DNA of 64,000 nucleotides from a virus: IMG/VR virus record IMGVR_UViG_3300042892_005063, positions 43,041-107,040 of that record; one strand, written 5' to 3'. Below, piece after piece: positions 7,251 through 63,853 of this stretch (position 1 is its first letter; each line of letters begins with the position of its first letter). The notes beneath the pieces are model-generated. The model saw only the letters and a list, made by a program, of their open reading frames with translations. It ran no database searches and was not told where the DNA came from. The translations under genes and the position numbers were made by a program.

Positions 7251-7644
7251 ACTGATCGCCATTCTCGTGGCCTCGACCGCACTCTCTGGATGCGGCGGCC
7301 TGTTCGGAGGTGGACGTTTCACTCTACCCTCCTTGGTCGAAAACAAGCCCGTCCCGATCACCATCGTGCAACCCACGCCGATGGAACTCAACGACGTCAC
7401 CTGGAAGGTCTACACGCCGGAGACCCTCGCCGCTGAGGTTCAGCAGGCGCCGACCGGCACTGTTTATTATGTCCTCACCCAGGACGAGTACAATGTGCTG
7501 GCCATGAACCTGTCCGAGATGCGCCGCTACATCGAAGACCAGTCGGCGGTGAACGCCACGCTCATTAACGCGATCAAGATCAATGAGGGTGAGCGAACTC
7601 CCGCCGTTGAAGTCTCGCCCCCCGCCGCCCGTCCCGCGCAGTGA
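7237..7644 (+). CDS. Lipoprotein, candidate outer-membrane spanin
   Basis: 135 residues. Signal peptide with a lipobox ending LSGC (cysteine at about residue 18), then a C-terminal block YVLTQDEYNVLAMNLSEMRR, a pattern I know from lipoproteins of large phages located beside coiled-coil membrane proteins. AGGAGG sits six bases before the ATG. Paired with the i-spanin candidate it would span the periplasm and disrupt the outer membrane at lysis. The alternative is an unrelated phage lipoprotein. Confidence 0.7.
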   Translation: MRPVKLIAILVASTALSGCGGLFGGGRFTLPSLVENKPVPITIVQPTPMELNDVTWKVYTPETLAAEVQQAPTGTVYYVLTQDEYNVLAMNLSEMRRYIEDQSAVNATLINAIKINEGERTPAVEVSPPAARPAQ

Positions 7645-8456
7645 ACGACCCCCATAGTGTTCTCGGCGTCGCGCGAGATGCAGATGCCGCGACGATCAAA
7701 TCCGCCTATCGGAAACTTGCCAAGAAGTGTCACCCGGACCTCCACCCAGGTGACGACAAGGCTGAGGCGCGCTTCAAGGAAATTACGGCCGCCTACGATG
7801 CCTGTATGAAACCGCAGGGCCAGAGCGGACAGCAAGGCCAGCGCGAATGGGCCAACTACGACAACATGTCTGGCTTCAATCGGGCATCGTTCGAGGAAAT
7901 GTTCCGTCGCGCCGGTTTCAACGTCGAGCCGACCCTTGACGTCAACGCTGTCTGCGCGATCTCGCTTGAAAACGCTTTCTCCGGCTGTGAGATCGACGTC
8001 CAGATGCAGAGCACGGGTCAGGTTAGACGCGTCACCATTCCGATGGGGGTGCAGGATGGCCACCGTCTCAAGGTGTCGGGTGGCGGACGTCAGGGGCCGA
8101 GCGGCGTGGGTGACCTCATCCTGACCGTCCGGGTGCAGCAACATCCTGTCTGGGGTCGCGAGGGCGACGTCCTCATCCGTACTTTCGAACTGGACGCCCT
8201 GACCGCCGTAGTCGGCGGCAAGGTCATGGTCGAGACCATGGAGGGCGAAATCGTCGAGGTCGAGATTCCGGGGGGCATGCAGCACGGCGCCTATGTGATG
8301 GTCCCAGGTCGCGGAATGCCTCACGGGACGATGAATGCCCGTGGAGACATGGCAATTATCGCACAGATTGTGGTTCCCCAAAAAATTGGCCCAGAACACG
8401 CTAAAACGATCAAACGGCTGAAAGATTTATTGGCGGCCTCGAAAAAATCGGCATAG
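7641..8456 (+). CDS. DnaJ/CbpA-like co-chaperone
   Basis: 271 residues from GTG 7641 (GTGA overlap). J domain at residues 2-60 with the HPD motif at 31-33, a short Gln/Gly linker, then two C-terminal substrate-binding beta domains (VRRVTIPMGVQDGHRLKVSG; VEVEIPGGMQHGAYVMVPG) as in CbpA. There is no cysteine-rich zinc domain, so it resembles CbpA rather than DnaJ. It should recruit host DnaK through HPD. It sits upstream of ClpA, suggesting a protein-folding and turnover group. Confidence 0.92.
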   Translation: MNDPHSVLGVARDADAATIKSAYRKLAKKCHPDLHPGDDKAEARFKEITAAYDACMKPQGQSGQQGQREWANYDNMSGFNRASFEEMFRRAGFNVEPTLDVNAVCAISLENAFSGCEIDVQMQSTGQVRRVTIPMGVQDGHRLKVSGGGRQGPSGVGDLILTVRVQQHPVWGREGDVLIRTFELDALTAVVGGKVMVETMEGEIVEVEIPGGMQHGAYVMVPGRGMPHGTMNARGDMAIIAQIVVPQKIGPEHAKTIKRLKDLLAASKKSA

Positions 8457-8511: not shown

Positions 8512-9153
8512 ATGCATACGGTTGGTGATTTTGATACCCACGCATCCATCCCCTACTACCCGACCCGCAAGCCCTACTGGGGCCGTTTCCCATACCGGGT
8601 GTCCATCCTCATAGACACCAAGACGGCTTCACAATACCGCAAGCTCGGCCCGCACTGGCTGGCCCACAAACGCAAGCAGCTTCTGGGCGGCGTGGCCGGG
8701 GCCGAATCGGCTGACAAGATGACGTGGCTGGCGGGCGGCGTAGCGTTTTTCTTCGATGACGCCGAGGTGGCCAAAACTTTCATCGACGCCAACGTGACCA
8801 TCATCGAAGACGTGCATCGCCCGGTCGGCGGCCAGGAAGCCGTCATGGCCGACCCCAAGGTCCGCGTGCAGAAAAATCTCTACTGGCTCCAGTTCCGATA
8901 CAAGATCAGCTTCAACGTCAAAACCTACCTTCGCGACGACTCCCGCGTGGCCGAGCTTGACGAATGGGCCCTGACTGAGTTCCCGTTCGATGACACGGAC
9001 GGGCGCGGCCTCTATAGCGTATCGGACATCCGCACCCTCTACCTTCGGGACGAGCGCGACATTCTCCTTACCCAACTGATGGTTGGCCATCATGTCAAGG
9101 ATATCGAGAAGGTTATCCTGTTTAGCGAACTCGGCAGCGACAACGAGATTTAA
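8512..9153 (+). CDS. Unknown protein with a repeated strand-helix unit
   Basis: 213 residues. Two halves each end in a hydrophobic strand followed by an acidic turn and helix: VAFFFDDAEVAKTFID near residue 75 and LYLRDERDILLTQLM near residue 185. The unit resembles the tail signature of the dispersed small-protein family in this window, so this may be a two-copy member. No catalytic motif recognised. Confidence 0.75.
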   Translation: MHTVGDFDTHASIPYYPTRKPYWGRFPYRVSILIDTKTASQYRKLGPHWLAHKRKQLLGGVAGAESADKMTWLAGGVAFFFDDAEVAKTFIDANVTIIEDVHRPVGGQEAVMADPKVRVQKNLYWLQFRYKISFNVKTYLRDDSRVAELDEWALTEFPFDDTDGRGLYSVSDIRTLYLRDERDILLTQLMVGHHVKDIEKVILFSELGSDNEI

Positions 9154-9166
9154 TCGAACTTTTCGG

Positions 9167-9194
9167 TTGCCAGATTTTCATTTTGCTCTATACG
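9167..9194 (+). promoter_or_regulatory. Promoter for clpA
   Basis: TTGCCA (9167-9172), 16-nt spacer, TATACG (9189-9194), about 40 bases before the TTG start. Confidence 0.55.
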
Positions 9195-9234
9195 TTGGGG
9201 CAATCCGTTTCACCGCTTATTTGCGAGAAATACC

Positions 9235-11553
9235 TTGAACTCAGATTCCAGCCATCCCGAACTCATTCGCTTCGCGTCGCAGATGGTGGACATCGCCCGT
9301 CGCCAGAAGCACGAAGCCGTCATGCTCGAACACGTCGTCATGACGTGCTTGAAGTCGGACGACGTCATCGAAGCCCTCGAAAAGCTGGACGTGGACGCCG
9401 AGGATGTCGAGGACGACCTGATCAACTATTTCAAGTCGGGCTACATCCCGCAAGTCCAGAATGCGAACCCGCCGCTCAGCACCACCGTCAACGAAGTGCT
9501 GTCGCGTGCCGCCCACTCGGCGAAGTCGCAGAGCCGCGCCGTCACCGGTCTGGATATCCTCGTGAAGGTGTTCGGCTATACGGCCGAAGACAGTTTCGCC
9601 GTCGAGGTTCTGACCAAGAACGGCCTGACGGGCTTCAAGCTGTCCAACTACATGGGCGAAGCCTCGGGTGAAGACCCCGCACTGGCCAACGGCAATCATG
9701 GCGGCGGCGCGTTCCAGATCACGAACGCCGACGAGGCCCGCATTTTCCTCGCCAAATACTGCGAGAACCTCAACGACCGCGCCAAGGAGTCGAAGATCGA
9801 CCCCCTGATCGGTCGCGAGGATGAAGTCGCCCTGATCGTGCAGATCACGGCCCGTCGCACCAAGAACAACGCCATCCTGGTCGGTGAACCCGGCGTCGGC
9901 AAGACCGCCATCGCGGAGGGTCTGGCCAAGCAGATCGTCGAGGGCAACGTGCCCGCCATTCTGGCCAACGCCGAAGTGTGGAGCCTCGACGTCGGCGCCC
10001 TGATGGCCGGAACGAAATACCGGGGCGAAATGGAAGAGCGTCTGAAGCAGACGATCAAGGCGTTCGAATTCATCGACGAATCCATCGTCTTCATCGACGA
10101 AATCCACACCATCATGGGTGCGGGCGGCGGCGGCTCCGCGCTCGACATCGCCAACCTGCTGAAGCCCGCCCTGTCCAAGGGCACGCTGCGCTGCATCGGT
10201 TCCACGACCTTCGAGGAGTTCCGCAAGCACTTCGAGAAGGACCGCGCCTTGCTGCGCCGGTTCAAGCGCGTGGACGTCAACGAGCCCTCGCTCGAAACGA
10301 CCAAGCTCATCCTGGCCGGGCTGAAGTTCAAATACGAAGAGTTCCACGGCGTCACCTACACCGACGAAGCCATCGACGCGGCGGCCGATCTCACCTACCG
10401 GTACATCAACAATGCCCTGCTGCCCGACAAGGCCATCGACATCATGGACGCCGCTGGTGCGGCCCAGAAGGTTCGTGGCGAGGAAGGCCTGAAGGTCATC
10501 ACCCTCGGTGAGATCGAGACCGAAGTCGCCAAGGTGGCCCGCATCCCGCTCAAGACCATCGCGGAAGACGAGACCGACAAGCTCACCCATCTGGAAACCG
10601 ATCTCCAGAAGAGCGTGTTCGGCCAGGACAAGGCCCTGACCGCCCTGTGCGACGCCGTGTTCGTCACCCGCGCCGGTCTGCGCGACACCAACAAGCCCTC
10701 GGGCTCGTTCCTGTTCGCCGGTCCCACGGGCGTCGGCAAGACCGAGGCCACGCGCCAACTCGCCGACACGCTGGGCGTGCCGCTGATCAAATACGACATG
10801 TCTGAGTTCATGGAGAAGCACACCATCTCCAAGCTGATCGGTTCGCCTCCGGGCTACGTTGGCTACGAGGACGGCGGCGCCGGGTCGGGCAAGCTCGTCA
10901 ACGACATCGAGACGCACCCCTACTGTGTCCTGCTGCTCGACGAAATCGAGAAGGCTCACCCGGACATTTATTCGATCTTCCTTCAGGTCATGGATGACGG
11001 CGTCCTGACGTCCTCGTCCGGCAAGAAGGTCGATTTCCGCAACGTCATCATCGTCATGACGACGAACGCGGGCGCGTTCGAGCAGAGCCGGAACACCATC
11101 GGTTTCGGGGTGCAGACGGGCGGCGACCCCATGGAGGCGATCAAGCGGCTCTTCACGCCGGAGTTCCTGAACCGCCTCGACGCCATCGTGGGCTTCAACC
11201 GCCTGTCCCAGGAGCACATCCTGAAGGTGGTGGACAAGTTCCTGCTCAAACTCGCCGAACAGGCCGGGGAGCGCGGCGTTACCATCGACGTCGGCCCGGA
11301 AGCCCGCACGTGGCTGGCCAAGCACGGCTTCGACGACAAGATGGGCGCGCGTCCGCTCAACCGGTCCATCCACGACCACATCAAGACGCCGCTCAGCCGT
11401 CAGATGACCATCGGTGATCTGAAGTTCGGCGGCACCGCCACCGTGACCGTGGACGGCGACAAGCTGGTCATCACCTCGGTGGCGGCCCCGGCCAAGCCGG
11501 TCATCGTTCCGGTGATCGAAGCCGAAGAAGAGAAGAGCGCGGTCTCGGTCTAA
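9235..11553 (+). CDS. clpA: ATP-dependent Clp protease ATP-binding subunit ClpA
   Basis: 772 residues, full length for ClpA. It has a Clp N-domain (to ~150), AAA+ module 1 with Walker A GEPGVGKTA (~220-228) and Walker B IVFIDEIHT (~285), then AAA+ module 2 with Walker A GPTGVGKTE (~496-504) and VLLLDEIEKAHPD. TIGFGV in the second module occupies the place of the IGL/F loop that docks onto ClpP, so it probably works with host ClpP. No clpP is in the window. Start is TTG 9235, placed to keep the helical N-domain. As ClpAP can degrade ALAA-tagged proteins, it pairs logically with the tmRNA at 62.9 kb. Confidence 0.96.
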   Translation: MNSDSSHPELIRFASQMVDIARRQKHEAVMLEHVVMTCLKSDDVIEALEKLDVDAEDVEDDLINYFKSGYIPQVQNANPPLSTTVNEVLSRAAHSAKSQSRAVTGLDILVKVFGYTAEDSFAVEVLTKNGLTGFKLSNYMGEASGEDPALANGNHGGGAFQITNADEARIFLAKYCENLNDRAKESKIDPLIGREDEVALIVQITARRTKNNAILVGEPGVGKTAIAEGLAKQIVEGNVPAILANAEVWSLDVGALMAGTKYRGEMEERLKQTIKAFEFIDESIVFIDEIHTIMGAGGGGSALDIANLLKPALSKGTLRCIGSTTFEEFRKHFEKDRALLRRFKRVDVNEPSLETTKLILAGLKFKYEEFHGVTYTDEAIDAAADLTYRYINNALLPDKAIDIMDAAGAAQKVRGEEGLKVITLGEIETEVAKVARIPLKTIAEDETDKLTHLETDLQKSVFGQDKALTALCDAVFVTRAGLRDTNKPSGSFLFAGPTGVGKTEATRQLADTLGVPLIKYDMSEFMEKHTISKLIGSPPGYVGYEDGGAGSGKLVNDIETHPYCVLLLDEIEKAHPDIYSIFLQVMDDGVLTSSSGKKVDFRNVIIVMTTNAGAFEQSRNTIGFGVQTGGDPMEAIKRLFTPEFLNRLDAIVGFNRLSQEHILKVVDKFLLKLAEQAGERGVTIDVGPEARTWLAKHGFDDKMGARPLNRSIHDHIKTPLSRQMTIGDLKFGGTATVTVDGDKLVITSVAAPAKPVIVPVIEAEEEKSAVSV

Positions 11554-40445: not shown

Positions 40446-40521
<76 letters not shown>

Positions 40522-40546
40522 CGTCCTAGTATTCACGATGTGTCAT

Positions 40547-40623
40547 CGGGGTATAGCTCAGTCTGGTAGAGCACTCGCTTTGGGAGCGAGGGGTCAAGAG
40601 TTCGAATCCCTTTACCCCGACCA
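40547..40623 (+). tRNA. tRNA-Pro (TGG)
   Basis: Acceptor CGGGGTA/TACCCCG, C1-G72 as usual for tRNA-Pro, anticodon TGG (40581-40583), T-loop TTCGAAT, encoded CCA. Confidence 0.96.
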
Positions 40624-40653
40624 CACGTGAATCCTTCAAGGTATCTGCTCAGT

Positions 40654-40727
40654 CGGGGTGTAGCGCAGTCTGGTAGCGCACTGGTCTCGGAGTCCAGGGG
40701 TCGTAGGTTCGAGTCCTACCGTCCCGA
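40654..40727 (+). tRNA. tRNA-Pro (CGG)
   Basis: Acceptor CGGGGTG/CGTCCCG, D-arm GCGC/GCGC, anticodon CGG (40688-40690) in loop CTCGGAG, T-loop TTCGAGT. The 3' end is ACTG, so CCA must be added after transcription. Confidence 0.92.
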
Positions 40728-40748
40728 CTGAACAGATAGTTTGATCAT

Positions 40749-40801
40749 CGGGGGAGGCCGTGAGAGGCCAGTGCACTGAGGTGAAAATCCTCCACCCCCC
40801 G
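40749..40801 (+). ncRNA. Mini tRNA-like element without D/anticodon arms
   Basis: 53 bases: CGGGGG (40749-40754) pairs with CCCCCG at the end; inside are a GGCC...GGCC hairpin and a T-arm-like GAGG-TGAAAAT-CCTC. Too short for a cloverleaf. Lies between tRNA-Pro(CGG) and tRNA-Ala(GGC). It could be a tRNA relic or a processing signal. Confidence 0.45.
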
Positions 40802-40814
40802 TCCAAACCATCTT

Positions 40815-40890
40815 GGGGTCTTAGCTCATCTGGTAGAGCGCAACACTGGCAGTGTTGAGGTGGCGGGTTCGAGTCCCGCAGATTCCACCA
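40815..40890 (+). tRNA. tRNA-Ala (GGC)
   Basis: Acceptor GGGGTCT/AGATTCC with G3-U70, anticodon GGC (40848-40850) in loop CTGGCAG, T-loop TTCGAGT, encoded CCA. Confidence 0.95.
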
Positions 40891-40994
40891 TTCATGGGCG
40901 TGTCGGCGACAACGGGGGCTACCCCGCTAGGCCACCTGCGGTCGGCCCGAAAGGGGGCTTCAGGGAGAGGTGCAAGGCCTCTCGCGTTCCACCA
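40891..40994 (+). ncRNA. tRNA-like 3' half ending in CCACCA
   Basis: GAGAGG-TGCAAGG-CCTCTC (40965-40983) is a T-arm-like stem, followed by GCGTTCC and ACCA. No matching 5' acceptor strand is found upstream, and several hairpins fill the rest. Possibly a degraded or permuted tRNA-like RNA. Confidence 0.35.
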
Positions 40995-41027
40995 ACCCCG
41001 GCGCAATCCCGCGCCACGAGAACCGAT

Positions 41028-41198
41028 ATGGACAAGAAGACGGAGAAGAAAAAGAAGAAACTGCTAGATCGCATCGCCGAACTGGAAACCGAACTCCGGC
41101 AGTCGCTGGGGAAGAAGGATAGTCGCACCGTCGAGATCGACGTGCCGTCCCAGATGCGGAAGATCGCCGATTTGCAGGCACAAGTATCGCGGATGTAA
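41028..41198 (+). CDS. Small coiled-coil protein inside the tRNA cluster
   Basis: 56 residues from ATG 41028: Lys-rich start (DKKTEKKKKKLLDRI), heptad-like AELETELRQSL, then the block DSRTVEIDVPSQMRKIADLQ and a second coil. I have seen this KDS-R-TVEIDVP pattern in small proteins of unknown function in other phages. Only protein gene between the tRNAs besides the AlaRS-like gene. Confidence 0.75.
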   Translation: MDKKTEKKKKKLLDRIAELETELRQSLGKKDSRTVEIDVPSQMRKIADLQAQVSRM

Positions 41199-41204
41199 AT
41201 CCAC

Positions 41205-41279
41205 GGGGATATAGCTTAACGGGTAAAGCGCGCCCCTCGCACGGGCAAGTCTGCGGTTCGATTCCGCATATCTCCACCA
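41205..41279 (+). tRNA. tRNA-Ala (CGC)
   Basis: Acceptor GGGGATA/TATCTCC with G3-U70, anticodon loop CTCGCAC, T-loop TTCGATT, encoded CCA. Completes reading of all four Ala codons with TGC and GGC. Confidence 0.95.
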
Positions 41280-41284
41280 ACAAC

Positions 41285-41356
41285 GGGCGGCACAGCCAGT
41301 GCAATGGGAATAAGCTTTCCCAGAAGAGTGGGAGTGGCTCTCCCCTCCGTCCACCA
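41285..41356 (+). ncRNA. tRNA-like RNA with G3-U70 and CCA
   Basis: 72 bases. Acceptor GGGCGGC pairs six of seven with TCCGTCC, including G3-U70, followed by ACCA. Inner hairpins TGGGAA/TTCCCA and GGGAG/CTCCC are present, but the D-arm is not recognisable and the T-loop is abnormal. Its ends carry the alanine identity pair. Confidence 0.5.
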
Positions 41357-41361
41357 AACAG

Positions 41362-41440
41362 GGGCCAGAGAACCACAGGCGTGGTTCGACGGTGAAGGGG
41401 GTCGCTCCTCCATGGGGTTCGATGCCCCACTGGTCCACCA
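41362..41440 (+). ncRNA. tRNA-like RNA with G3-U70, T-arm and CCA, abutting the AlaRS-like gene
   Basis: 79 bases. Acceptor GGGCCAG/CTGGTCC forms seven pairs including G3-U70, then ACCA; the T-arm TGGGG-TTCGATG-CCCCA (41413-41429) is standard. The D and anticodon arms are replaced by a perfect GAACCAC-AGGC-GTGGTTC hairpin and a GGGGG/TCCTCC stem, so there is no anticodon. It ends 30 bases before the likely start of the AlaRS-like gene, so it could be a charged RNA or a tRNA mimic controlling that gene. Confidence 0.6.
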
Positions 41441-42323
41441 TTTCAACACCAACATCCTGGGAGGATGCTATGACACTGCGGGACGCCTAACAGAGACCTA
41501 CCGGACTTTCTGCCTCGAACGCGGCATTGAGTTTCATGAGGTCAAGAGTGTGAGACCACACGACAACACGACCTTGTTCTGCCCTGCGGGGATGCAGCAG
41601 TTCAAGGAAGACTACCGGGGACATCGTCGCGGGACCGTATCCAATATTCAGTCCTGCATCCGGCTCAATGATCTGGATGAAATCGGCGACCAAACCCACC
41701 ACCTAACCTTCGACATGATCGGGCTGTTTTCGTTCCGTGACATGAGCGTTCTGGAGACCATCGATTTCTGGTTCGAATTCCTCTCCAAGATTGGCATCAA
41801 GCCCGACGTGGTCACCATCCACCCGGACAAGATGCTGGACTGGCGAGAACTCTATCGGGGCCGCGACGTAGAAATACGGCCGGACCCGGAGTGCACGTGG
41901 TCGGACGGCGGCATGGGTGGATACTGCACGGAGTTCTACGTCAGAGGCGTGGAGATCGGCAACATCGTGAATACCAACGGAGATTCAATCGACGTCGGTT
42001 TCGGGATGGAACGCCTTCTCTGGGTTCTCGGCGAAGAAACGCCACCGCGTGGGGACATCCTGGTCCGCACCATCGACCGCATCGTTGAGTCGGGATACCG
42101 GCCCAGCGGCAAGCAGCAGGGTCATGTGCTCCGGCGCCTGATCGGGTTGCTGACAGACGAGGGCAGCCATCCCAACCACCCCGAGGTCGTCAGCGAGACG
42201 TCCAGACGGGTGAAGCTCTCGGAACGCTTCGACCGCCTTTGGCCGAAGCATCAAGACAAGTCGCCAGAGTGGTGGCTGGACACCCACGGTATCGTGGTGT
42301 CTGAAATGGTCCTCAGGGTGTAG
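41412..42323 (+). CDS. Minimal alanyl-tRNA synthetase-like protein
   Basis: Up to 303 residues from ATG 41412. Class II AlaRS catalytic blocks are in order: NTTLFCPAGMQQFKEDYRG (motif 1 region), DQTHHLTFDMIGLFSFRD (motif 2), SIDVGFGMERLLWVL (motif 3), then GKQQGHVLRRLIGLL and WWLDTHGIVVSEM at the end. Cellular AlaRS is ~870 residues; the editing and C-Ala domains are missing here. It lies in a cluster of tRNA-Ala and G3-U70 tRNA-like RNAs. The true start is unclear: ATG 41412 lies within a tRNA-like T-arm, while the best ribosome site (GGGAGG) serves ATG 41470 in another frame. Its stop lies inside the next tRNA. Confidence 0.85.
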   Translation: MGFDAPLVHHFNTNILGGCYDTAGRLTETYRTFCLERGIEFHEVKSVRPHDNTTLFCPAGMQQFKEDYRGHRRGTVSNIQSCIRLNDLDEIGDQTHHLTFDMIGLFSFRDMSVLETIDFWFEFLSKIGIKPDVVTIHPDKMLDWRELYRGRDVEIRPDPECTWSDGGMGGYCTEFYVRGVEIGNIVNTNGDSIDVGFGMERLLWVLGEETPPRGDILVRTIDRIVESGYRPSGKQQGHVLRRLIGLLTDEGSHPNHPEVVSETSRRVKLSERFDRLWPKHQDKSPEWWLDTHGIVVSEMVLRV

Positions 42324-42388
42324 CTCAGTGGCAGAGCGCACGGTCGGGAATCGTGAGGCCGGGATTTCAAAATTCCCCACCCTGACCA
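42314..42388 (+). tRNA. tRNA-Pro (GGG), unusual C33
   Basis: Acceptor CAGGGTG/CACCCTG with C1-G72 and A73 as in tRNA-Pro, D-arm GCTC/GAGC, anticodon loop TCGGGAA giving GGG (42346-42348), T-loop TTCAAAA, encoded CCA. Position 33 is C rather than the near-universal U. The first ten bases overlap the end of the AlaRS-like gene. Confidence 0.82.
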
Positions 42389-52647: not shown

Positions 52648-52721
52648 GCGGGTGTAGCTCAATGGTAGAGCCGCTGCCTTCCAAGCAGAAGACGAGAGTT
52701 CGATTCTCTCTATCCGCTCCA
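52648..52721 (+). tRNA. tRNA-Gly (TCC)
   Basis: Acceptor GCGGGTG/TATCCGC, anticodon TCC (52680-52682), T-loop TTCGATT, encoded CCA. Confidence 0.95.
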
Positions 52722-52736
52722 GCAAATCTCCAGTCT

Positions 52737-52808
52737 GTTCCAGTAGCTTAAAGGCAGAGCAACTGATTTTCAATCAGTCAGGTGGCGGTTCGACTCCGCT
52801 CTGGAATA
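52737..52808 (+). tRNA. tRNA with anticodon TTC (Glu), atypical
   Basis: Acceptor GTTCCAG/CTGGAAT, anticodon stem ACTGA/TCAGT with loop TTTTCAA (TTC), T-loop TTCGACT. CCA is not encoded. The body is unlike the neighbouring tRNA-Glu, so identity is less certain than the anticodon suggests. Confidence 0.72.
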
Positions 52809-52809
52809 C

Positions 52810-52884
52810 GCGGCTATAGCTCAGTGGTAGAGCGTCTGCTTGCCAAGCAGAAGGTCGGGGGTTCGAGCCCCCCTAGCCGCTCCA
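52810..52884 (+). tRNA. tRNA-Gly (GCC)
   Basis: Acceptor GCGGCTA/TAGCCGC, anticodon GCC (52842-52844), T-loop TTCGAGC, encoded CCA. Starts two bases after the previous tRNA. Confidence 0.95.
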
Positions 52885-52918
52885 TTCCTCCAACGCATAC
52901 CCCATTACTCATCTTCGC

Positions 52919-52993
52919 GGTCCCTTCGTCTATCGGTTAGGACGCTAGACTTTCAATCTGGAAAGACGGGTTCGATTCCCGTAGGGACTACCA
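52919..52993 (+). tRNA. tRNA-Glu (TTC)
   Basis: Acceptor GGTCCCT/AGGGACT, D-arm GTC/GAC as in bacterial tRNA-Glu, loop CTTTCAA with TTC (52952-52954), T-loop TTCGATT, encoded CCA. Confidence 0.94.
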
Positions 52994-53007
52994 AGAATAT
53001 TGGCTCT

Positions 53008-53082
53008 GTCGCCGTAGCTTAACGGTGGAGCGTCCGCTTCTCAGGCGGTTGGTTGCGAGTTCGATTCTCGTCGGCGACACCA
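53008..53082 (+). tRNA. tRNA-Glu (CTC)
   Basis: Acceptor GTCGCCG/CGGCGAC perfect, loop TTCTCAG with CTC (53040-53042), T-loop TTCGATT, encoded CCA. Confidence 0.94.
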
Positions 53083-60872: not shown

Positions 60873-60949
60873 CGCGGGGTAGAGCAGTCCAGTAGCTCGT
60901 TTGGCTCATAACCAAAAGGTCGGCGGTGCGAATCCGTCTCCCGCACCCA
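60873..60949 (+). tRNA. Initiator tRNA-fMet (CAT)
   Basis: 77 bases. Begins CGCGGGG and ends TCCCGCACCCA, giving the C1-A72 mismatch diagnostic of bacterial initiators; D-arm and loop AGCAG...GTAGCTCG follow E. coli tRNA-fMet closely; anticodon CAT (60907-60909). The anticodon stem is TTTGG/CCAAA, so only two of the three hallmark G-C pairs remain (29-41 is U-A), and the T-loop starts TGCGAAT. Confidence 0.93.
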
Positions 60950-61034: not shown

Positions 61035-62143
61035 CGAGGTTAACTCGCAACGATAGAGCAACGGCCCGGAGGGACCGGGACAGGCAGCGGTGTCTGTTCT
61101 AGGCTGACGGCGGCACTCTAGAGGGGCTTGCAGACGGGGATAGGGCCCACCAGCCCGATTCCCCGTCGCCTCAATGTGGTCAGATGGGTCTCCGTCTGGC
61201 ATCACCATCCTAACCTTCATGGACGTTGGTGCGTTCGCCGGAGGGACAAGTATGTGAACGCGGCCCTCAAAAGCCGAAATGTTGCTGGGTCAGGCGCAGT
61301 GCGCGCTGAGACCAAATACTGGAGTTGGGCGGTGGTCCTTCTGACCACATTAGGTCTTTGACATTCGTCGCCTGTCTTTGATAGGGCGTAGGTCGATGGT
61401 CGGGCCCGTGGTCGCCCGCACTCAAGCGAGTGGTGGGGTTCGATTCCCCGAGGCCCGGTGTAGTTCTCGAATGGATAAGCGGTTCGTCCCTCATCCGAGA
61501 TCGTTTGCGCCTACAGGCGACGTCTACTAAAACTAAGGGGCTAGTCCTGGCCCGCTGAGAAGTGTCGCCCGACCAGCCAAGAGTGCTCCGGGATAGTCGC
61601 TCAGCATAAGCCTACAGGACACACCGTGGGGCGCGACACCCCGCGATGAACACGCGTTGCTATTGCGCGTCCGGGAAACAACTGTTGGTCCGGTTAACTG
61701 GCAAACACTTAGATTAGTCGGGATTTTTTTCCGACTTATACCCTCCCTCTATACCTGTCGGCCCCGATGTGCTGTTTAGAGCAAAGCATATCCCCGACTG
61801 ACTGCACCAGATGCGGCTGAAATGCCAAATCGTCTACCCAGTATACAGGCGTATGCTGGGGGTCTTGAGCGCAAGGTCTGAACGCTTCGGCGTTCCGGTG
61901 GGGGAAGGGGGCTCTGTTGGTGGCGCAGATGCGCCTAGGCTGTGGGTCCACGTCAACTGAACGGCCCCATTAGATTTCGGTGCCAGGGGTGGAAGGCCTT
62001 CCTGAACCTGTGGCTGGAGTCTCGAAATGCAGTCGAGGCGGGTAGAAAGCGAAACCGGACTGGGACTGACCCTAGCACCGGGCCGCGTTGACAAGCACCG
62101 CCCCGCAAGCGCGGGTAAGTCGTGTGCGCTTCCTACAGACGAA
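61035..62143 (+). ncRNA. 1.1-kb gene-free transcript, structured RNA of unknown type
   Basis: Promoter at 61001 and terminator at 62144 bracket ~1.1 kb without a credible gene; open frames inside are short and unsupported. Numerous perfect stems occur (CCCGGAGGGACCGGG near 61061; AGTCGG...CCGACT at 61715; GGCGCAGATGCGCC near 61922; CCCCGC..GCGGG near 62102). A T-arm-bearing element at 61401-61458 is the only recognisable part. It may hold several RNAs. No rRNA or RNase P core seen. Confidence 0.5.
61401..61458 (+). ncRNA. Mini tRNA-like element
   Basis: 58 bases: acceptor CGGGCCC/AGGCCCG (six pairs), one hairpin CACTC-AAGC-GAGTG, and a canonical T-arm TGGGG-TTCGATT-CCCCG. No D-arm, no anticodon loop of normal size and no CCA. 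Same plan as the element at 40749. Confidence 0.5.
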
Positions 62144-62172
62144 GGGGCGGGGGAAACCCTGCCCCTTTTTTT
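62144..62172 (+). terminator. Rho-independent terminator
   Basis: GGGGCGGG...CCCTGCCCC stem with a GGAAA loop and a run of seven or more T. Confidence 0.85.
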
Positions 62173-62173
62173 C

Positions 62174-62201
62174 TTGACAAGATTTCCGTCCGTGGTAGCA
62201 G
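62174..62201 (+). promoter_or_regulatory. Early promoter
   Basis: TTGACA (62174-62179), 16-nt spacer, TAGCAG (62196-62201), before the 62222 gene. Confidence 0.55.
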
Positions 62202-62221
62202 TACGGAAACAGGAGAGTCTT

Positions 62222-62887
62222 ATGAACCGTCGTACTTTCTTCGCCAGCATTCTCGGCGCCTCAGTTGCGGGCACGCTCGGCAGTCTCGCAGTTCCCGCAT
62301 GGGCGCGCGCCGACGAGAGCCTGAACATCTATGTTCGCCTGATCGACCTCCAGAAGGCGATGCTGGCCAACCACGAAACCTGGAAGAGCGGCCCGGCGTT
62401 CGCCCACGTGCCCGAACTCGACGACCCCTTGGATACGCGCCCCGATGTCGAAAAGCGTCGCCGCCACCTCGTCGAACAGCGAATCGCTGACCGCCACGCG
62501 GCCCGCAAGAACTACGATCTGACCCCGGCTGACGCCGTCCTCGCGCACCTGAACGCCCATTTCGCCCCCGACGCCAGCGACGTCAGCGAGGCCCTCGTGC
62601 GCCAAGCCCGCGCCGAGGCCAACGCGGTTGGCGGCGTGAAAATGTCCAGAACGGATTTCCGTCGCGAGGTCGCCATTGAGCAGGCTCGGCGAGAAGTCCG
62701 GGCCGTGTTCAACCGAGAAATCGAGATCGACACCATGTCGGAGGCCAGCATGCGCCGCGTGCTGAAATCGACGGTCGCCGTCGCGGTCGTCAAGGGCATG
62801 CTGTCGGTGCACAAGATGCCCCTCGACCCCAAGAAGATGGGCGCCTTCAACGAGTTCGCGACGAAGTTCAGGCACATCATCCTTTAA
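62222..62887 (+). CDS. Exported protein with twin-arginine-type signal
   Basis: 221 residues. N-terminus NRRTFFASILGASVAGTLGS ending PAWARA looks like a Tat signal peptide (RR followed by a mild hydrophobic core and A-x-A cleavage). The mature part is helical and charged (EKRRRHLVEQRIADRHAARK), without cysteines. GGAG ribosome site upstream. Secreted phage proteins of this kind could act in the periplasm, for example on lysis or exclusion; function unknown. Confidence 0.78.
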   Translation: MNRRTFFASILGASVAGTLGSLAVPAWARADESLNIYVRLIDLQKAMLANHETWKSGPAFAHVPELDDPLDTRPDVEKRRRHLVEQRIADRHAARKNYDLTPADAVLAHLNAHFAPDASDVSEALVRQARAEANAVGGVKMSRTDFRREVAIEQARREVRAVFNREIEIDTMSEASMRRVLKSTVAVAVVKGMLSVHKMPLDPKKMGAFNEFATKFRHIIL

Positions 62888-62888
62888 C

Positions 62889-62918
62889 TTGACAGTTTCC
62901 GGCCAAGGTGATTAAATA
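62889..62918 (+). promoter_or_regulatory. Promoter of the tmRNA
   Basis: TTGACA (62889-62894), 18-nt spacer, TAAATA (62913-62918), immediately after the 62887 stop. Confidence 0.75.
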
Positions 62919-62924
62919 ACTGCG

Positions 62925-63326
62925 TGTTGGTGACCAAATCAACCGCTTAGGCAGGACCGGGGTGCGAATCCCCGCGCCTCCACCAAAAACACATAGCCCG
63001 CTGAGATACGCGGGGAGCCGACTGTCATGTAAGCCGGGTTGGGGTTTCTAGAGCCCTGGCTATCAACGGTAGATCGGGGACAGTCACAAGGCGGCTAGAG
63101 TTCCTTAGCGGGGGCAACAGTCTAGGCTCGCTACGACCGATATGGTCTGTGTGTTTTTGATGGGGGCGAATAGCTATCGACTGATAGGCGTAGAGGCGAG
63201 AGACACCGGTAAGAAACGACCGAAAATCAGTTCAAATTTCTACCTGCCAACGACAACGTTGACATGGGTTCCTACGCCCTCGCGGCGTAAGGAACTCGGG
63301 GCCCACTGGGGGCCTAGCAACAGAAG
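62925..63326 (+). ncRNA. ssrA: Circularly permuted two-piece tmRNA
   Basis: Acceptor piece first: T-arm CGGGG-TGCGAAT-CCCCG (62958-62974), acceptor strand CGCCTCC and ACCA to 62985. The coding piece begins at 63162 with GGGGGCGAATAGCTATCGAC, whose first seven bases pair with CGCCTCC including G3-U70, the alanine identity pair. The tag frame starts at GCC 63246 and ends TAA 63288-63290: ANDNVDMGSYALAA. Sequences near 62943 (GCTTAGGC) and 63312 (GCCTAGC) can form the helix joining the pieces. The 176-nt interval is long for a permuted gene. Rescues stalled ribosomes and tags products for Clp proteolysis. Confidence 0.93.
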
Positions 63327-63355
63327 GGGAGACTTCGGTCTCCCCACCTTTGTTT
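63327..63355 (+). terminator. Terminator of the tmRNA
   Basis: Perfect GGGGAGAC-TTCG-GTCTCCCC stem (63327-63346) followed by a T-rich stretch. Confidence 0.8.
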
Positions 63356-63415
63356 CGGTTGACCGTTTCGAAATCTCCGACTAAACCGGTCTACGAAATA
63401 ATCCGAGAAAAGCCC

Positions 63416-63853
63416 ATGACCATCGAAGCCCGTATCGCCCTCGTAGAAGACGTCCGTCCGCACGGTGATCACATGTCCATCGTGACCATCTCCGGTCATG
63501 AGGTCGTGGCCAATCGTGACGAGAACGGCGAGTTCCGTTTCCGGGTCGGCGAAGCCGCCATCTACGTGCCCGAGAATGCCATCATCCCCGAGGAGTTCCT
63601 CAAAGACCGTGGCTACTGGGACGAGACCAAAGGCAAGGGTCTGCTCGGCGGCTCCAAGGGGAACCGGGTCAAGATGCAACGCTTCATGGGCTTCGAGAGC
63701 CGTGGGTTGGTCTGGAAGGTCCGCGAGTCCACCGAGCCGGGCACCTACATCGTGGACCGTCACTGCGGCAACCCTGGTTTCGAGTCCGGTGAAGCCAGCG
63801 TCGGCGACGACTGTGCTGCATTCTTCAATCTGTCCGAATACGTCGCGGCCTGA
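63416..63853 (+). CDS. RNA-ligase-type OB-domain protein (no ligase core)
   Basis: 145 residues from ATG 63416. EARIALVEDVRPHGDHMSIV, VGEAAIYVPENAIIPEEFL, then KGNRVKMQRFMGFESRGLVW match the N-terminal OB-like domain that precedes the catalytic core in a group of phage RNA ligases. The lysine nucleotidyltransferase motif is absent, so this is either a free-standing RNA-binding domain or one half of a split ligase. Position beside the tmRNA hints at RNA handling. Confidence 0.75.
   Translation: MTIEARIALVEDVRPHGDHMSIVTISGHEVVANRDENGEFRFRVGEAAIYVPENAIIPEEFLKDRGYWDETKGKGLLGGSKGNRVKMQRFMGFESRGLVWKVRESTEPGTYIVDRHCGNPGFESGEASVGDDCAAFFNLSEYVAA

Follow-up and report, generated by a model that had tools for sequence, protein, structure and literature searches.

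Circularly permuted tmRNAs, which are encoded acceptor-first and consist of two pieces, are known from alphaproteobacteria such as Caulobacter (Rfam families RF01849 and RF04321), where they carry a G3-U70 pair, an encoded CCA, a T arm and an ANDN-type tag. Two-piece tmRNAs have also been published for phages. ARAGORN identified 53 such structures among 18,146 phage genomes (PMC9004378), and methylophage Melnitz and others have a complete permuted tmRNA in a lytic phage genome. According to the published view, most phage tmRNAs belong to the same lineages as those of their hosts (PMC9004378), and they have hitherto been read as genes taken from hosts. The gene analyzed here is a divergent further example of a phage two-piece tmRNA. 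Judged from its sequence and its relatives, it is probably (at about 0.78) a functional permuted tmRNA of an alphaproteobacterial jumbo-type myophage that descends from a long-standing phage-borne lineage and was not recently captured from the present host.

The window, a stretch of 64,000 nucleotides, comprises bases 43041–107040 of a 107,040-base virus record. An earlier note on this DNA had described a phage-encoded, permuted tmRNA with the acceptor-first order of alphaproteobacteria and a 14-codon tag ending in ALAA; ARAGORN and two Rfam models agree on the permuted gene, its order and its tag, which the translation reproduces. ARAGORN called a single tmRNA in the window, of the permuted type (tmRNA*), at 62889–63381 (+), with the tag ANDNVDMGSYALAA. 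The tmRNA_permuted model (RF04321) matched 62930–63290 with 95.3 bits (E 3e-17, gathering threshold 47), and the alpha_tmRNA model (RF01849), the check proposed in the note, matched 62885–63334 with 71.6 bits, over its gathering threshold of 50. The gene scores low by both models; alphaproteobacterial tmRNAs typically reach 130–165 bits with RF04321. The complete two-piece gene spans about 62,925–63,345 (+). Position 62889, the 5' end reported by ARAGORN, was rejected as an RNA end, as it belongs to a promoter-like site. The acceptor piece is followed by an intervening segment and then by the coding piece, with the following elements:

62889–62917 (+), weak promoter-like site read from the sequence: TTGACA (62889–62894), 17-nt spacer, TTAAAT (62912–62917)
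62926–62943 (+), hairpin GTTGGT...ATCAAC in the 5' part of the acceptor piece (two-strand fold)
62958–62974 (+), T arm with a 5-bp stem CGGGG/CCCCG and the loop TGCGAAT (fold and Rfam alignment)
62975–62985 (+), 3' strand of the acceptor stem, CGCCTCC (62975–62981), then A73 and the encoded CCA (pairing)
62986–63161 (+), intervening segment of 176 nt between CCA and G1, overlooked in the earlier note
63162–63168 (+), 5' strand of the acceptor stem, GGGGGCG, the predicted 5' end of the coding piece
63169–63181 (+), D-arm analogue AATAGCTATCGAC, a variant of the usual AAATAGGATCGAC (sequence)
63207–63222 (+), first helix, CGGT/ACCG, of the pseudoknot preceding the tag (Rfam alignment)
63246–63290 (+), tag frame ANDNVDMGSYALAA plus TAA (ARAGORN, Rfam and translation)
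63326–63345 (+), terminator-like hairpin GGGGAGAC-TTCG-GTCTCCCC of 8 bp with a UUCG loop

The elements required for charging and for frame setting are all present. GGGGGCG and CGCCTCC form seven of seven acceptor-stem pairs, with U70 facing G3, and the T stem has five pairs; both stems are recovered by the two-strand minimum free energy fold. The CCA is the 3' end of the acceptor piece at 62985, and the two ends proposed earlier, 62985 and 63162, fit the acceptor stem exactly. The T loop is uninterrupted and Rfam gave no intron match at E up to 5, so an intron-type tmRNA, with a group I intron in the T loop, was rejected. The tag codons (63246–63287) read GCC AAC GAC AAC GTT GAC ATG GGT TCC TAC GCC CTC GCG GCG; the frame ends with a hydrophobic degron followed by the stop codon TAA at 63288–63290. 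The resume codon is preceded by U at -5 and A at -4, which we take to be the kind of signal known to set the tmRNA frame. This tag had been considered unlike the usual alphaproteobacterial types in its middle, and it is indeed absent among the approximately 210 alphaproteobacterial tmRNAs sampled; it is reasonable to expect that phage-tagged products may be distinguishable from host-tagged ones.

Other parts of the gene depart from the common form. The D-analogue is present, as the earlier note held, but its departure from the usual form had been overlooked: the window has GAATAGCTATCGAC in place of GAAATAGGATCGAC, without the usual GG, and the variant pattern GGGGGCGAATAGSNATCGAC had zero matches in 84,980 prokaryote genomes. 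A rearrangement also appears to have affected the 3' domain, where the terminator-like hairpin stands in place of the usual last pseudoknot strand. That hairpin is real, but the T run after it (ACCTTTGTTT) is weak. Both hexamers of the suggested promoter are also there, the first of them perfect; the second, however, matches TATAAT at only four of six positions, and a consensus promoter scan scored no site at this place. Together with the low Rfam scores and the very long branch of the gene in the trees described below, the altered D-analogue and 3' domain and the weak promoter are what would be expected of a decaying, non-functional remnant of a phage tmRNA. We consider such decay unlikely, because it would be expected, if random, to break some of the landmarks that are intact, namely the perfect acceptor and T stems, the G3-U70 pair, the encoded CCA, the tag frame and an 11-bp stem closing the intervening segment. 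That every charging and frame landmark is intact despite the very long branch points to a tmRNA in which the parts needed for function have been kept.

The phage origin of the gene, also claimed in the earlier note, is borne out by the same record, which encodes terminase, tail sheath, tail tube, DNA polymerase, DNA ligase, tyrosyl-tRNA synthetase, a ClpA-type unfoldase and DnaJ. Because its ClpA and tail sheath have their best matches in Sinorhizobium phage Phosso (469 kb) and Agrobacterium phage Atu_ph07 (490 kb), at 45–53% identity, the record is probably a fragment of an alphaproteobacterial jumbo myophage. Over 5,974 bp that include the tmRNA, the record and a second viral contig (L127, 198,512 bases) do not differ. 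The genes relevant to the tmRNA are:

62027–62887 (+), upstream neighbor, 286 aa, of no known family
63416–63853 (+), downstream neighbor, 145 aa, resembling only the N-terminal (OB-fold) part of phage RNA ligases (phrog_968, E 1e-11)
9235–11553 (+), phage ClpA-type unfoldase with TIGFG at the ClpP-docking loop, a possible downstream partner

The downstream 145-aa protein scored under the family cut-off against PF21189. The alignment of the phage ClpA with E. coli ClpA covers nearly the full length of the protein (696 bits). The phage ClpA may handle tagged proteins. A DnaJ gene lies close upstream of the unfoldase gene, at 7641–8456 of the window. SmpB was not found in either contig, in Phosso, in Atu_ph07 or in the Rhodobacter phages, and ClpP was not found in the two contigs, both of which are possibly incomplete; since neither was found in the phage contigs, rescue would need the SmpB and ClpP of the host. 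ARAGORN also reported 12 tRNAs in the window: two clusters (40446–42388 and 52648–53082) hold a narrow set of only Ala (3), Pro (3), Gly (2) and Glu (3) tRNAs, and a lone tRNA-Met lies at 60873–60949. In the part of the record outside the window (L004:4653–8502, -), the terminase large subunit is split over two ORFs about 720 nt apart, and the first of them has a LAGLIDADG homing-endonuclease domain, intein-like, between the terminase parts.

Unannotated permuted tmRNAs were found in three named phages. Phosso (PV764938.1, 349553–350242, -; L484:1501–2190) has one with the tag ANDNVSTKVALAA that scores 108 bits with RF01849 and is not called by ARAGORN. The Rhodobacter phages RcSimone-Hastad (L002:2199–2637) and RcRudolph (L003:2223–2637) share the tag ANDNVRMDAQALAA; the RcRudolph annotation places a hypothetical protein across part of the tmRNA gene. 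Atu_ph07 gave no tmRNA match.

To compare phage-borne and chromosomal permuted tmRNAs, we scanned viral contigs with a degenerate D-region pattern, which returned at least 120 stretches. The matches listed, together with the two Rhodobacter phages and the window, yielded 70 permuted tmRNAs called by ARAGORN. An even draw of alphaproteobacterial genomes supplied 99 control tmRNAs, and an exact-pattern scan supplied 111. The figures describe this sample, because its members were collected by the D-region pattern, owe their viral status to IMG/VR calls and are interrelated. The median length of the intervening segment was 81 nt in phages and 30 nt in the even draw (Mann-Whitney p 2e-13, kinship ignored), and the median closing stem was 10 bp versus 4 bp. 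GAT preceded G1 in 50 of 70 phage genes versus 6 of 99 in the even draw, and the tag ended in an aromatic residue followed by ALAA in 40/70 versus 6/99. The G3-U70 pair was common to both groups (70/70 and 98/99). The window gene has each of the phage-type features: a segment of 176 nt, a stem of 11 bp, GAT and YALAA. A hand-composed, consensus-like query had no match in the phage collection. One bacterial sequence, the Rhodobiaceae MAG MED766 (L236), has a tmRNA with a 184-nt intervening segment, a phage-like closing stem and the host-type tag ANDNYAPVAVAA; its segment contains an ORF for a 49-aa membrane protein with a ribosome-binding site.

We constructed maximum-likelihood trees from both tmRNA pieces, with the intervening segment left out and with chromosomal controls without named SAR11. 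The 69 phage-borne permuted tmRNAs, including those of the window, the Rhodobacter phages and Phosso, lay on one side of a single branch that separates them from the alphaproteobacterial chromosomal tmRNAs, with an SH-aLRT support of 99 without the divergent phage tmRNA L136 (described below) and 94 with it. In the careful run, the branch had UFBoot 100 and SH-aLRT 92 and appeared in 100% of the bootstrap trees, although the bootstrap had not fully settled; support was 87 when only well-filled columns were used. The tRNA-like part alone gave a tree that needs two changes between phage and chromosomal states, as did the first tree, made before Phosso was added. The tip of the window gene is very long, and its exact place in the tree is therefore not fixed. 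With controls that hold no named SAR11, the single phage branch looks like a departure from the published view of phage tmRNA lineages cited above.

These data bear on the possibility that a host ssrA gene was captured recently, for example by imprecise prophage excision or by recombination, and has no phage-specific role. Such capture has been proposed for phages (PMC9004378), and the alphaproteobacterial form of the window gene would be compatible with it. However, used as a blastn query, the window tmRNA matched only 4 of 289 alphaproteobacterial genomes, and these in short pieces; its D-analogue variant is absent from the prokaryote genomes scanned, the trees group it with phage tmRNAs, and it resembles the phage genes in its tag end, closing stem and GAT. 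Recent capture is therefore, in our judgment, very improbable, and we favor descent within a phage-borne lineage.

The intervening segment of the window is closed by its own ends, which pair over 11 bp (62986–62996 with 63147–63157) and are followed by TGAT and then G1. With a few flanking bases, the segment folds better than shuffled sequences (z -3.9); the core without the closing stem has a z of -1.7 and is not significantly structured. Since the segment without this stem does not clearly beat shuffles, the well-supported feature is the stem. A group I intron, a ribozyme or another known RNA was rejected as an identity for the segment on the basis of the core z-score and of a search with Rfam that gave no match. 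The 176 nt contain no ORF with a ribosome-binding site; a nested frame of 51 open codons runs to the TGA of TTTTTGAT but has no evident start preceded by such a site. The segments of the window and Phosso have a weak collinear similarity at their 3' ends, with a score of 35 versus a maximum of 34 in 200 shuffles. The string GACCRATATGG, common to the two, was not confirmed as a conserved element in viral scans: one scan led to a locus (L491) that is not a tmRNA, and in a second scan 12 of 13 stretches were not tmRNA loci, the remaining one being the second contig of this same phage.

In marine relatives, such segments can hold a conserved protein gene. A family of membrane proteins of 38–44 residues has 268 confirmed loci in viral contigs; among the best 80 of these 268, 62 are located within a permuted tmRNA, in the stretch from CCA to G1, and 18 lie outside a tmRNA or where none was called (examples of the nested gene are found in L402–L481, e.g. 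L402:3001–3132, and in L105, L091, L070, L022 and L041). In the 37 distinct segments extracted, the ribosome-binding site AAAGGAGA directly after CCA opens the segment, and the stop codon of the ORF is the TGA of TTTTGAT or TTCTGAT, 1 nt before the mature 5' end. The pN/pS ratio is 0.16–0.18 in the frame of the ORF and above 1 in the other two frames, and the ORF is thus a real protein gene. A second short ORF with a GDSDEE motif precedes and overlaps it. It would be an unusual arrangement for a protein gene to lie within the portion of a tmRNA precursor that is discarded. Our literature search on a membrane-protein gene in the intervening segment of a tmRNA found nothing, and in the portion of a 2025 tmRNA database paper considered here, the intervening-sequence contents mentioned are only a tRNA gene and a repetitive element (PMC11915505). 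Because the ribosome-binding site lies within the closing stem, the question arises whether production of the nested protein and of the tmRNA may compete.

A scan with the tag DNA, which mostly returned matches without a tmRNA call, led to a further divergent phage tmRNA (L136:8861–9690) with the tag ANDNVDMDAVRLAA, the one that begins most like the window tag. Both sides of its acceptor stem, GGGCUAG/CUAGUCC, have changed, with G3-U70 kept. Between the first pseudoknot and the tag, it contains a 147-aa gene of the endonuclease VII/HNH type (9139–9582; phrog_3322, E 1e-31) with its own ribosome-binding site, and the insert leaves too little space for a group I intron. It would be unusual for a homing-endonuclease gene to lie within the mature mRNA-like part.

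The strong enlargement of intervening segments in phages, the conserved coding cargo in some of them and the 3'-end similarity between the window and Phosso raise the question of whether the 176-nt segment is itself under selection, for example as a regulatory RNA or another cargo that cleavage of the precursor sets free, the tmRNA being also its carrier. In the window, though, the segment lacks an ORF with a ribosome-binding site and matches no Rfam family, the core is not significantly structured, and the scans did not find the 3' motif in other viral tmRNAs. We regard selection on the segment itself as improbable for this gene.

On the preferred reading, that of a functional tmRNA of a phage-borne lineage, the transcript would fold with the 11-bp closing stem beside the acceptor stem. 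RNase P would cut at 63162 and 3' processing would leave CCA at 62985, so that the 176-nt middle would be discarded while the two pieces remained paired. Host AlaRS could then charge the RNA via G3-U70, and host SmpB would deliver it to stalled ribosomes, where stalled chains would receive alanine from the charged RNA followed by ANDNVDMGSYALAA. The tagged chains would pass to host ClpXP or ClpAP and possibly also to phage ClpA docked on host ClpP. We hypothesize that the phage tmRNA keeps ribosomes working and allows amino acids to be recycled if mRNA is cleaved or host tmRNA becomes limiting in infection.

A broader proposal, which we put forward tentatively and at slightly less than even odds, is that the permuted tmRNAs of alphaproteobacterial phages form a single old lineage adapted to infection. 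It would have its own class of aromatic-ALAA degron, an enlarged, stem-closed cargo segment (small membrane-protein genes in marine phages, possibly RNA in the window and Phosso) and a need for the SmpB of the host; in this jumbo phage, the phage ClpA could also route tagged proteins to host ClpP. The window gene would be among the most divergent members. If there is one phage lineage with shared non-host features, phages maintain and adjust ribosome rescue as a trait, and both the tag and the intervening segment offer handles for tests.

Compared with the known systems, the window gene shares with the alphaproteobacterial permuted tmRNAs all the features listed at the outset. It differs from them in its intervening segment (176 nt versus a median of 30–33), its closing stem (11 bp versus 4–6), its SYALAA tag end, its variant D-analogue and its low score. 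Like the published phage genes, it is a complete permuted tmRNA, but it comes from a relative of jumbo phages and not from a marine phage of the SAR11/OM43 type; Rfam found no glutamine riboswitch in the window. The tmRNA of Phosso likewise belongs to a jumbo phage with related ClpA and tail sheath and has the closing stem and GAT before G1; unlike the window gene, it has a 410-nt intervening segment, higher scores (108 and 113 bits) and the acceptor stem GGGGCUG. The closest DNA match of the window gene in the phage collection is to the Rhodobacter phage tmRNA (79% over 81 nt, in the tag region). The Rhodobacter phage genes also have a stem-closed segment, ending in TTGAT or TTGCT, but this is only 97–98 nt long, and the phages, of 63–65 kb, are unrelated. 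Relative to what has been described, the new elements are the grouping of the phage genes on one side of a single branch, the long, stem-closed segments, GAT and aromatic-ALAA tag ends that they tend to have in common, and the protein genes nested in the tmRNAs of relatives.
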